NCBI GenBank assembly: GCA_003149065.1
Contig: QGFZ01000001.1
Location: 1,550,001-1,614,000 of the forward strand
Length of the DNA stretch: 64,000 nt
DNA from: Ruminococcaceae bacterium R-25
GTDB lineage: Bacteria; Bacillota; Clostridia; Saccharofermentanales; Saccharofermentanaceae
Reading direction: 5' to 3'
Positions 1,450-4,377 of this stretch are shown here, piece after piece; position 1 is the first letter of the stretch, and every line of letters begins with the position of its first letter. Below the pieces are notes generated by a model. That model searched no databases, was not told the DNA's origin, and saw only the letters and a program-made list of their open reading frames with translations. The position numbers were made by a program, and so were the translations under genes.

Positions 1450-1471
1450 AAAAACAGGATTTTCAGATCCT
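1450..1471 (-). terminator. Weak terminator at the end of the Sua5-like gene
   Basis: Minus-strand hairpin AGGAT/ATCCT with a 6-base loop, followed by GTTTTTGGG, overlapping the stop codon of the Sua5-like gene. The stem is only 5 bp. A second structure, TTGAGAC/GTCTCAA (1402-1438), lies just beyond with a T-run on the plus strand. Confidence 0.35.
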
Positions 1472-3271
1472 CGAAGCGCCAAGATCCTTAATTATGTAGG
1501 GGAACAGGATTTCGAGCCATGCTCTGAGTGCCTTGGCAGTATGAAGATAAGTCTCAAAATTCTGGCCCGTGGGGTCAGGAACGGAGATCGACATGACTTT
1601 TCCGGACGAATCTTTCATAACAAGACCGTTTGCAGCAGCAAAAGTCGAGAGCGAAAATACCTTGTCTTTTATCTGCGGGAAGGCCTTTATTATCGCAAAT
1701 GCCTGTTCGTCCCTTACCGTAAGGATCAGGTCATTGCAGTCGTAAATGGCAGGATCTGCCCTTCTGGATTCGATATTCTTGATCCCGAAACCGGAGATCT
1801 CCCTTACAGCCTTATCCATCTGTTCGTCAGGCCCCATACCGTCCACAGCCGTAAGGCCTGCAGATTCGCAGTAGATCTCAACACCGGTATCACTTTCCCT
1901 GTTTGAGATGTAAGGCTCGTTCTTTTCTATCATGCGTCTCATAAGGGATTCCAGACATGAAGACAAAGAAGTATTGTTGTCGTCAACGAAAAGCACGGAT
2001 GCCGTGAACGTATCCTTAAAAGCATCCAAAGGAAGAGGCGTTCTGTCGGGTCTTGCAGGAGCGGGCATTCCGGGAACCAATGCTTCTTTCTTGCCTGCAG
2101 CCTTAGAGAGCCTGTTCATGTAAGCTACTGACAAGCCTTCGCCGTCAAAGCCCTGCGCAAGGATCGTATCGACTTCCTGTACATCCAAAAATCTCAGACC
2201 TTCGAAAAGTCCGTGGGAAGCAGCGGAAACATCTACTGTCTTTCCGTAAACGCAGAACTCGGTATGGGCTAAGAGGAGCTTGTCGTTCATCTTGTCATAC
2301 ATAGCCTTGATCTCGCCGCCGCAGTAGAGGCCGATCCTCGCAAAAGGATTAGCCTGCAATATCTCTCTTGATCTTAAGATAAACGGTGATGCGATATTTA
2401 CTAATTCTTTTGCTTCATCATCAGAAAGCTTCTTTAAGTCTTCAATGGTAAATGTAGCCTTGGAGATCTTGCCGTCTGAACCTGCCTTGTCATCGCCTTC
2501 GATCTTTGTGCCCTCAGGCATCTTCATTATCTCGACCTGGGCAAAAGGCGCATAGTGGCGGTACTTCATTCCGGGTGATCTTGGTGTTTCCTTATCAGCT
2601 AATGAACCTGACATAACAGTCTCTCCTCCTCCCAGTACCTGATCGATATCAGCCTTTGTAACGGCACCGGGTCTTAAGATAACAGGTGTCGTTCCCGTGC
2701 AGTCAACAACTGTGGATTCCAAACCGAATTCGGAATCGCCTCCGTCTATAACCGCGTAGATATAACCGTCCATATCTTCAAGGACTGACCTTGCACCCGT
2801 AGGGGAAGGTCTTCCGGAAAGGTTTGCAGAAGGTGCTGCGACCGGAACGCCGCAGAGCTTTAAGAACTTATTGGCAACAGGATGGGACGGCATTCTTACA
2901 CCGACCGTATCAAGGCCTGCGGTAGTCTCATCAGCAATACAATCAGCCTTTTTCATTACGACCGTAATGGGGCCGGGCATAAAAGCATCTATCAGCTTTT
3001 GTGCAAGAGGAGTGATCTCGGATACGATATCTTTTATCTGAGCCTTATCTCCGATGTGGCAGATAAGCGGGTTATCAGCAGGGCGTCCTTTTGCCGCGAA
3101 AACTTTCTTTACGGCTTCGCCGTTTCTCGCATCACAGCCAAGGCCATATACGGTCTCTGTAGGGAAACCGATGACTTCACCGTTTACCAGGTGTTCTGCA
3201 GCATCCTTTAATCCCTTATCGTCAGATGAATCTATAAGTAAAGTCTTCTTATATATTTTCGCGCGTTCCAT
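1463..3271 (-). CDS. Threonylcarbamoyl-AMP synthase (Sua5/YrdC) fused to a degenerate LMW phosphatase-like domain
   Basis: The N-terminal YrdC domain (about 10-210) has the PTETVYGLG motif. Sua5 enzymes use Thr, bicarbonate and ATP to make threonylcarbamoyl-AMP for the t6A37 tRNA modification. The Sua5 linker motif SPGMKYRHYAP and a Sua5 domain follow (to about 400). The last 177 residues (DNA 1463-1996) resemble low-molecular-weight tyrosine phosphatases, but the P-loop reads VDDNNTSLS where active members have VCTGNTCRS. The catalytic Cys and Arg are therefore lost, while the DP of the general-acid loop is kept. The frame is open to an ATG at 3292 overlapping prfA. I prefer the ATG at 3271 because a GAGG site lies about 7 bases upstream. 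It is probably cotranscribed with prfA. Confidence 0.9.
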   Translation of the reverse strand: MERAKIYKKTLLIDSSDDKGLKDAAEHLVNGEVIGFPTETVYGLGCDARNGEAVKKVFAAKGRPADNPLICHIGDKAQIKDIVSEITPLAQKLIDAFMPGPITVVMKKADCIADETTAGLDTVGVRMPSHPVANKFLKLCGVPVAAPSANLSGRPSPTGARSVLEDMDGYIYAVIDGGDSEFGLESTVVDCTGTTPVILRPGAVTKADIDQVLGGGETVMSGSLADKETPRSPGMKYRHYAPFAQVEIMKMPEGTKIEGDDKAGSDGKISKATFTIEDLKKLSDDEAKELVNIASPFILRSREILQANPFARIGLYCGGEIKAMYDKMNDKLLLAHTEFCVYGKTVDVSAASHGLFEGLRFLDVQEVDTILAQGFDGEGLSVAYMNRLSKAAGKKEALVPGMPAPARPDRTPLPLDAFKDTFTASVLFVDDNNTSLSSCLESLMRRMIEKNEPYISNRESDTGVEIYCESAGLTAVDGMGPDEQMDKAVREISGFGIKNIESRRADPAIYDCNDLILTVRDEQAFAIIKAFPQIKDKVFSLSTFAAANGLVMKDSSGKVMSISVPDPTGQNFETYLHTAKALRAWLEILFPYIIKDLGASRI

Positions 3272-3288
3272 ATATACCTCTTTTAAGA

Positions 3289-4377
3289 TCATTCCTCGCT
3301 TGAAGATGCATTCTCGGCAGCCTGTGCCAGAGTAAGCGCATCCACGATCTCATCAAGATCGCCGGCAAGTATCGCATCCAATTTATACAGTGTCAATCCG
3401 ATCCTGTGATCGGTAACTCTTCCCTGATGGTAATTATATGTGCGGATCCTTTCGGACCTGTCACCTGTTCCGACCTGGGATTTTCTCTCGTTGTTATGTG
3501 CATCAACGTCAGCCTGGTGAGCGATATCCCACAAACGGCTCTGAAGGACTTCCATAGCCTTTTCCTTATTCTGGATCTGGGATCTCTCGTCCTGGCAGGT
3601 AACCACCATGCCTGTAGGAAGGTGCGTGATCCTGATAGCTGAAGATGTCTTGTTGATATGCTGTCCGCCTGCGCCTGAAGCTCTGAATCTGTCGATCTTA
3701 AGATCATTCGGATTGATCTCGACATCGGTAGGCTCAGCCTTAGGGAGCACTGCTACGGTTGCAGTAGATGTATGGATCCTTCCGCCTGACTCGGTAACGG
3801 GAACGCGCTGAACTCTGTGAACGCCGCTCTCAAACTTCATTCTGGAATAGACTCTGGGGCCGTCGATCTCGGCAACTATTTCCTTATAACCGCCAAGCTC
3901 TGTCGGGCTCTCGTCAACAACGCTTACGTCAAAACCTTTTATTGCGGCATAACCCTTATACATCTTGAAAAGGTCGCCTGCAAAGAGCGCGGATTCTTCA
4001 CCGCCGGCACCTGCCCTGATCTCCAGGATTACTGATCTGTTGTCCCTGGGATCTCCCGGAGTGAGATATATCATGAGTTCTTTTTCGAGAACTTCCAGTC
4101 TGTCTTTGGCATCGGCAAGCTCTGCATTTGCAAGACTTCTCATCTCATCATCGCCGCCAAGATCACCGCTCTCCAAAAGATCTAAGATCCCCTCGATCTC
4201 CTTTTCGCAGGCTTCATAGCTTCTGATAGCTTCGACCTGGGGATTTAACGCTGCAAGCTCTTTTGAATACTTTGTGTATTCTTCAGGGCGCGAAGCAACA
4301 GCCGGATCACTTAATGTGCCGGTCAATTCTTCATACTTTGCCTTTATGAGTTCTGTCTTGCTCTTATCTATTGCCAT
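3289..4377 (-). CDS. prfA: Peptide chain release factor 1
   Basis: A 362-residue class I release factor that recognises UAA and UAG. The codon-recognition PxT motif is seen as PVT within HRVQRVPVTESGGR. The catalytic GGQ loop is seen as GAGGQHINKTSSA. Length and N-terminal coiled coil fit RF1 rather than RF2. The prmC methyltransferase gene that often follows prfA is absent; the Sua5-type gene takes that place, 17 bp downstream. Confidence 0.97.
   Translation of the reverse strand: MAIDKSKTELIKAKYEELTGTLSDPAVASRPEEYTKYSKELAALNPQVEAIRSYEACEKEIEGILDLLESGDLGGDDEMRSLANAELADAKDRLEVLEKELMIYLTPGDPRDNRSVILEIRAGAGGEESALFAGDLFKMYKGYAAIKGFDVSVVDESPTELGGYKEIVAEIDGPRVYSRMKFESGVHRVQRVPVTESGGRIHTSTATVAVLPKAEPTDVEINPNDLKIDRFRASGAGGQHINKTSSAIRITHLPTGMVVTCQDERSQIQNKEKAMEVLQSRLWDIAHQADVDAHNNERKSQVGTGDRSERIRTYNYHQGRVTDHRIGLTLYKLDAILAGDLDEIVDALTLAQAAENASSSEE

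Follow-up and report, generated by a model that had tools for sequence, protein, structure and literature searches.

McsB is described as both an arginine kinase and an adaptor of ClpC, two roles that a review calls hard to dissect, the adaptor reportedly needing kinase activity in Bacillus subtilis (PMC5506225). Further reports describe the Cys of McsB as essential (PMC12467219), R337-D338 as its phosphoarginine receptor site (PMC8370763) and E32 and E106 as the phosphoarginine pocket of ClpC (PMC12583610). On the phosphatase side, in the low-molecular-weight phosphatase (LMW-PTP) family, the fifth position of the P-loop is reported to be Thr for phosphoarginine and Ile for phosphotyrosine (PMC8001253). 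In the eukaryotic pseudophosphatases STYX and MK-STYX a phosphatase fold is described as kept without working catalytic motifs, as in the domain reported here. Both of these have the DUSP fold and are not known to be related to LMW-PTP by descent. The word phosphatase is absent from the main text of a 2023 study of the Sua5/TsaC family (PMC10321239), and a literature search of titles and abstract openings, with most subscription papers outside its coverage, returned no report of McsB as a pseudokinase, of a fusion between Sua5 and a phosphatase or of such a system in Saccharofermentans.

We analysed a stretch of 64,000 nucleotides (hereafter the window) from a genome of 3.07 Mb in 7 contigs, in which a Sua5 gene continues into a phosphatase-like domain (Table 1). 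This domain is like the arginine phosphatases YwlE and PtpB in its profile, in the best structural match of a model of modest confidence and in the CxGNTCR P-loop of its intact fused relatives, but unlike them it is without CX5R, has an acidic P-loop, is fused to Sua5 and has conserved residues of its own. Compared with the described McsB of ctsR-mcsA-mcsB-clpC operons, the protein of the genus keeps gene order, length and a PF00217 match but has lost the catalytic Glu and Cys and the ATP-binding Arg residues in all 27 loci examined. Pseudophosphatases and pseudokinases are already known; what is new here, within the literature searched, is that throughout one genus both the writer and the eraser of protein-arginine phosphorylation look dead, and that the eraser is joined to an enzyme of tRNA modification. 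Three points go beyond an earlier, sequence-only reading of the window: the arginine-phosphatase ancestor, the single genus-wide loss and the degradation of McsB as well.

The Sua5 fusion and its C-terminal domain

The fusion to Sua5 noted in the earlier reading holds up: like described L-threonylcarbamoyladenylate synthases, the window protein has both Sua5 domains, intact-looking and above cut-offs (TIGR00057 197.6 bits vs. an equivalog cut-off of 123.2; PF03481 87.4 bits vs. 22.9), and unlike them it has an extra C-terminal phosphatase-like domain. The ATG of the long open-reading frame, at 3292, overlaps the prfA stop codon (ATGA); relatives favour the ATG at 3271, which is the probable start of the fusion protein (602 aa).

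Table 1. Features of the Sua5 fusion locus, in window coordinates; residue numbers follow the 609-aa reading frame
Feature	Position	Strand	Remarks
Sua5 / LMW-phosphatase-like fusion gene	1463..3292	-	609 aa; directly behind prfA
prfA	3289-4377	-	neighbour of the Sua5 fusion gene
Sua5/TsaC catalytic domain (L-threonylcarbamoyladenylate synthase)	2666..3190	-	aa 35-209; PF01300 E 1e-57
Sua5_C domain	2093..2662	-	aa 211-400; PF03481 E 2e-24
Putative pseudo-arginine-phosphatase domain (YwlE-like LMW-PTP fold)	1466..1996	-	aa 433-609, 177 aa
Degenerate P-loop VDDNNTSLS	1961..1987	-	intact relatives: VC[TS]GNTCRS and similar
DP of general-acid loop, retained	1571..1576	-	D573-P574

The sequence-only reading had taken the last 177 residues for an LMW-phosphatase-like domain, with coordinates that took in the stop codon, and profile searches bear out the assignment. 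The full window protein matches LMWPc (PF01451) at aa 466-591 with 26.5 bits and the 177 residues alone with 30.3 bits (cut-off 23.2 in both cases), whilst all of 30 diverse genus members, each tested alone, match at E 0.01 or better. A profile of these 30 members aligns with 13 intact fused domains at HHalign probability 100 (E 2e-41) and with solved YwlE structures at E 6e-8. Structure prediction, which the same reading had proposed as a check, gave a divided answer: the AlphaFold2 model of the domain is of modest confidence (pLDDT 58.5, pTM 0.64), and with this model the best structural match in VIA-align was the YwlE arginine phosphatase 4kk4 (Z 8.6, 124 residues, rmsd 3.5), the 22 highest-ranking entries being LMW-PTP/ArsC folds (Z 6.9-8.6) and unrelated folds starting at Z 4.3, whilst Foldseek with the same pLDDT 58.5 model gave 0/735 matches at E 0.001 or better and uninformative top rows. 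The full-length AlphaFold2 model (pLDDT 45) was unusable. Because all 30 members match, the profile matches and the AlphaFold2 domain model aligns, the LMWPc resemblance is beyond chance. The sequence file for PDB entry 4egs gives a chain of an LMW phosphatase the name ribose 5-phosphate isomerase RpiB, which may reflect a further fusion from the surroundings of ywlE.

P-loop state and constraint in Saccharofermentans

We name the genus Saccharofermentans from the records of close relatives (Saccharofermentans sp., Ruminococcaceae, Oscillospiraceae, Clostridiales/Clostridia bacterium; AB4001 and YAD3003 are among them), several of which are of rumen or gut origin. The domain is present in 81 of 85 genomes of the genus and in 23 of 30 other genomes of the same family, and Sua5 fusions also occur in two further families of the order. 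The window P-loop reads VLF-VDDNNTSLS (aa 433-444), and its want of the catalytic Cys and Arg, seen in the earlier reading, is one case of a genus-wide loss of the motif: none of the 80 readable P-loops (81 domains, 80 spanning the P-loop) has CX5R. At the nucleophile position stand D (39 domains), C (26), S (13) and G (2); Arg is kept in 2/80 domains, its place being taken mostly by Leu in the others, Cys and Arg never occur together, and the P-loop Gly is replaced in 80/80. The general-acid loop, whose DP the reading had found, is retained (Asp 79/81, Pro 81/81). As to whether the Cys loss is general in clostridial Sua5 fusions, as had been asked, it is the loss of the full CX5R that is general within the genus, whereas CxGNTCR is intact in 39/39 readable fused homologues from other genera of the order. 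Rows were dropped for L003, which duplicates L002, for L147, which lies at a contig end and shows no P-loop, and for L045 and L046 (contig ends; L046 nevertheless shows CSGNTCRS); alignment A1 is without 2 of 27 loci from the named records of close relatives and alignment A2 without 6.

That the window merely holds a local mutation, frameshift or assembly error, the first of which the sequence-only reading had itself named as the finding that would overturn it, is vanishingly improbable: all 80 readable genus genomes agree, which rules out a sequencing error or local mutation, and the AB4001 and YAD3003 loci have the same domain. A domain that is still catalytic, in which Asp D437 has taken over as nucleophile, would fit the 39 domains with Asp at that position and the conserved general-acid Asp, but we consider it very unlikely, as the position varies between D, C, S and G among species, the Gly and nearly always the Arg are replaced (80/80 and 78/80), and the loop is acidic. 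Its net charge goes from about +1 in the 39 intact relatives to a mean of -1.6 in the 80 genus domains, with Asp or Glu at position +1 in 75/80. This shift is what might be expected if the former phosphate pocket bound a cation or the side chain of unphosphorylated arginine, as a reader and not an eraser; 7/80 loops are net positive, however, and individual residues vary, and we regard such a reader as distinctly unlikely. The phosphate sensing put forward in the earlier reading is also unlikely, because the pocket has lost its Gly and Arg and turned acidic, whilst the protein binding offered alongside it is still the best guess.

In a Sua5 tree of 85 rows, which took in 26 of the 81 genus rows, the dead domains form one clade (support 100/99) nested in the intact fusions of their own family and adjoining those of sister genera, a placement indicating that catalysis was lost a single time, at the base of Saccharofermentans. 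Unfused proteins make up 20 of the 85 rows; the tree requires six changes of the intact-fused label and five of the unfused label, so the order has seen more than one gain or loss of the fusion. Because all intact fusions have Thr in the P-loop (CxGNTCR, the YwlE signature), the ancestor of the fused domain was most likely a YwlE-type protein-arginine phosphatase; a tyrosine-phosphatase ancestor is ruled out, the fused relatives having CxGNTCR and not CxGNICR. The tyrosine-phosphatase kinship of the sequence-only reading is thus right as to the LMW-PTP family but not as to the closest active relative, which is the arginine phosphatase YwlE. The window genome has a separate standalone LMW phosphatase of the tyrosine type (P-loop CHGNICRS, with Ile).

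General replacement by another arginine phosphatase is ruled out by a DNA-pattern search of the genus genomes for CxGNTCR: apart from genome G056 the pattern occurs at 20 places in the genus, none of them an LMW phosphatase, and at no place in the window genome. By motif search, an intact YwlE-type phosphatase is present in 1/85 genus genomes. G056, which belongs to the genus, carries an extra standalone, intact CLGNTCRS domain (L039, C61) resembling that of sister genus g5, which may be a case of gene transfer or assembly contamination.

The domain has been held under constraint since. With dS near saturation and the values accordingly rough, median dN/dS among 23 close sequences (5 left out) is 0.056 for the Sua5 catalytic domain, 0.071 for Sua5_C, 0.059 for the phosphatase-like domain and 0.071 for the 12 codons of the P-loop. 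As far as so rough a measure goes, the dead domain is under similar constraint to the Sua5 catalytic domain and is not in free drift. Genus-specific near-invariant residues, which include E472, Y474, D489, G556, H584, W592, F597-P598-Y599 and K602, are spread along the whole domain and not gathered in one stretch. A single stop codon would suffice to remove the domain, and no stop before it was found among the genus genes read, contig ends aside.

McsB in the genus and elsewhere in Clostridia

The McsB-like gene of the window genome (L152, 4881-5939 on C3) lies within an otherwise intact ctsR-mcsA-mcsB-clpC operon, and the operon is kept in 27/27 examined genus loci; gene order and McsB length are also kept in the genus. 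PF00217 matches are found in 79/85 genus genomes, all of them weak, with E 1e-36 at best. Elsewhere in the order, the genomes that match reach E 2e-46 or better, except for broken pieces in G116 and G170. We scored seven key arginine-kinase residues, which we take to be those numbered 225, 271, 314, 124, 126, 229 and 280, with their roles. Among the 27 genus loci none of the seven is kept in 19, one in 7 and two in 1; among 17 other McsB loci of the order seven are kept in 14 and six in 3. The second Glu of NEED (Glu225-equivalent), the catalytic Cys (Cys271-equivalent) and the lid Glu (Glu314-equivalent) are all missing from each of the 27 genus loci, whilst 17/17 of the others have both Glu and 14/17 the Cys. 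The ATP-binding Arg is lost in 27/27 examined genus proteins, and NEEDH retains its His in 27/27. In sister genus g5 (L183, L184, L185) McsB has Tyr for the catalytic Cys with the other key residues kept, and its activity is uncertain.

Binding sites for phosphoarginine show a less uniform picture. The receptor site of McsB is largely gone in the genus (R337: Arg in 1/27; D338: Asp/Glu in 1/27), as against 10/17 and 17/17 outside it. In ClpC, the E32-equivalent is kept in 10/27 genus members vs. 14/14 outside, the E106-equivalent in 24/27 vs. 13/14, and both in 10/27 vs. 13/14, the window genome being without the E32-equivalent; by these residues the pocket appears lost only in part of the genus, a mixed result. 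Distances in the phosphatase-like domain correlate with those of other proteins ('mirror tree') at partial r 0.52 for McsB, 0.57 for CtsR and 0.50 for Sua5_C; as the correlation with McsB is no higher than that with CtsR, McsB is not singled out as a partner.

Degraded McsB is not confined to the genus (L229-L244, L266-L281). A class-wide search of 391 genomes pointed to weak McsB in other families, and a non-random sample was then picked by low McsB score, together with a small number of controls; of 26 McsB loci searched outside the genus 25 were readable, the McsB of G340 being dropped at a contig end. Five or fewer of the seven key residues are kept in 19 of the 25, distributed by family as f34 11/13, f12 4/4, f83 1/1, f84 1/1 and f67 2/6. 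All four of ctsR, mcsA, mcsB and clpC were recognised in 17/20 fetched neighbourhoods, the incomplete ones being G347 and G408 (mcsA and mcsB only) and G512 (without a recognised ctsR). An McsB tree, which took in 13 of the 27 genus rows and had G347 and G460 (6/7 residues) labelled degraded, requires 5 changes of state, at least 3 of them forced by well-supported branches, with long-branch warnings. In the lineages with degraded McsB outside the genus, one or both ClpC pocket glutamates are mostly kept.

The state of McsB goes with that of the phosphatase. In this sample, in which relatives within a family are not independent, an intact CxGNTCR phosphatase is present in 1/19 genomes with five or fewer McsB residues vs. 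4/6 with six or seven (p about 0.006); with G347 and G460 counted as degraded the Fisher test gives 4/4 vs. 1/21 (p 0.0004). The exceptions are G388 (f67), with a degraded McsB (L278) and an intact CTGNTCRS phosphatase (L261), and G347 and G460, in which McsB is close to intact and nothing matches LMWPc. Where McsB is degraded in f34, the genomes have only a paralogue of ArsC type or a fragment of 49 residues (G474), or match LMWPc nowhere. In G232 (f12, L265) a standalone domain has the P-loop SNEDTAR and McsB has Ser for Cys and His for the lid Glu, which by these residues makes it a second, unfused dead or dying pair.

Possible roles and significance

The reading that we consider probable makes the domain a pseudo-arginine-phosphatase that is conserved for binding or structure and has a pseudo-arginine-kinase, McsB, as its counterpart. 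A YwlE-type protein-arginine phosphatase would have been fused to Sua5 in the ancestor, and at the base of Saccharofermentans the chemistry would have gone from both sides of the arginine-phosphorylation cycle, with the loss of the phosphate pocket (Cys, Gly and Arg) in the phosphatase domain and of the catalytic Glu and Cys and the ATP-binding Arg residues in McsB. A YwlE without the P-loop Cys, Gly and Arg would form no phosphocysteine and should not hold phosphate, and, with the kinase probably dead as well, little or no phosphoarginine would be expected for it to remove. Since both proteins persist and the domain is constrained, non-catalytic roles are suggested, each protein most likely serving as a binding or structural module: the McsB-like protein with a place in the ctsR-mcsA-mcsB-clpC stress operon and something like the described ClpC/CtsR adaptor role, the YwlE-like domain with a binding or structural role attached to Sua5. 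As the adaptor role in B. subtilis is reported to need kinase activity, a dead McsB would have to work, or be regulated, differently. The sequences themselves show the ancestry, the lost residues, the single origin within the genus, the constraint on the domain and the joint loss; the inactivity, which is read from residues, a binding role and any physical or functional link between the domain protein and McsB are inferences from them.

The domain may instead be a passive appendage, arginine phosphorylation being gone and the folding, solubility or dimerisation of Sua5 having come to depend on it, with no partner and no link to McsB. Other lineages with a dead McsB are mostly without an intact separate phosphatase, whereas here the domain was fused, and stayed; the invariants of its last helix (H584, W592, FPY 597-599, K602) could pack on Sua5, and its distance correlation with Sua5_C is like that with McsB. 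Yet the domain is absent from many Sua5 proteins of the order, as the 20 unfused tree rows show, its constraint is as high as that of the Sua5 catalytic domain, and its genus-specific invariants run along its whole length and not one stretch, so that we hold this alternative to be possible but somewhat unlikely.

A wider version of the pseudo-phosphatase reading is more doubtful and is offered tentatively: what was once chemical signalling by protein-arginine phosphorylation may repeatedly have become, among Clostridia, a complex without catalysis, McsB turning into a pseudokinase that acts as adaptor within the Clp operon. In Saccharofermentans the phosphatase would have survived as an arm of Sua5, a pseudophosphatase that would link t6A tRNA modification to protein quality control.

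As a caution, the presence of mcsB or an LMWPc match alone does not imply arginine phosphorylation in Clostridia. The naturally dead-looking McsB proteins in intact ctsR-mcsA-mcsB-clpC operons would represent natural separation-of-function cases in this class. If true, a dead-looking writer and eraser of which the eraser domain remains constrained would point to roles beyond phosphate transfer, and the fusion offers a handle, Sua5, with which partners may be found.
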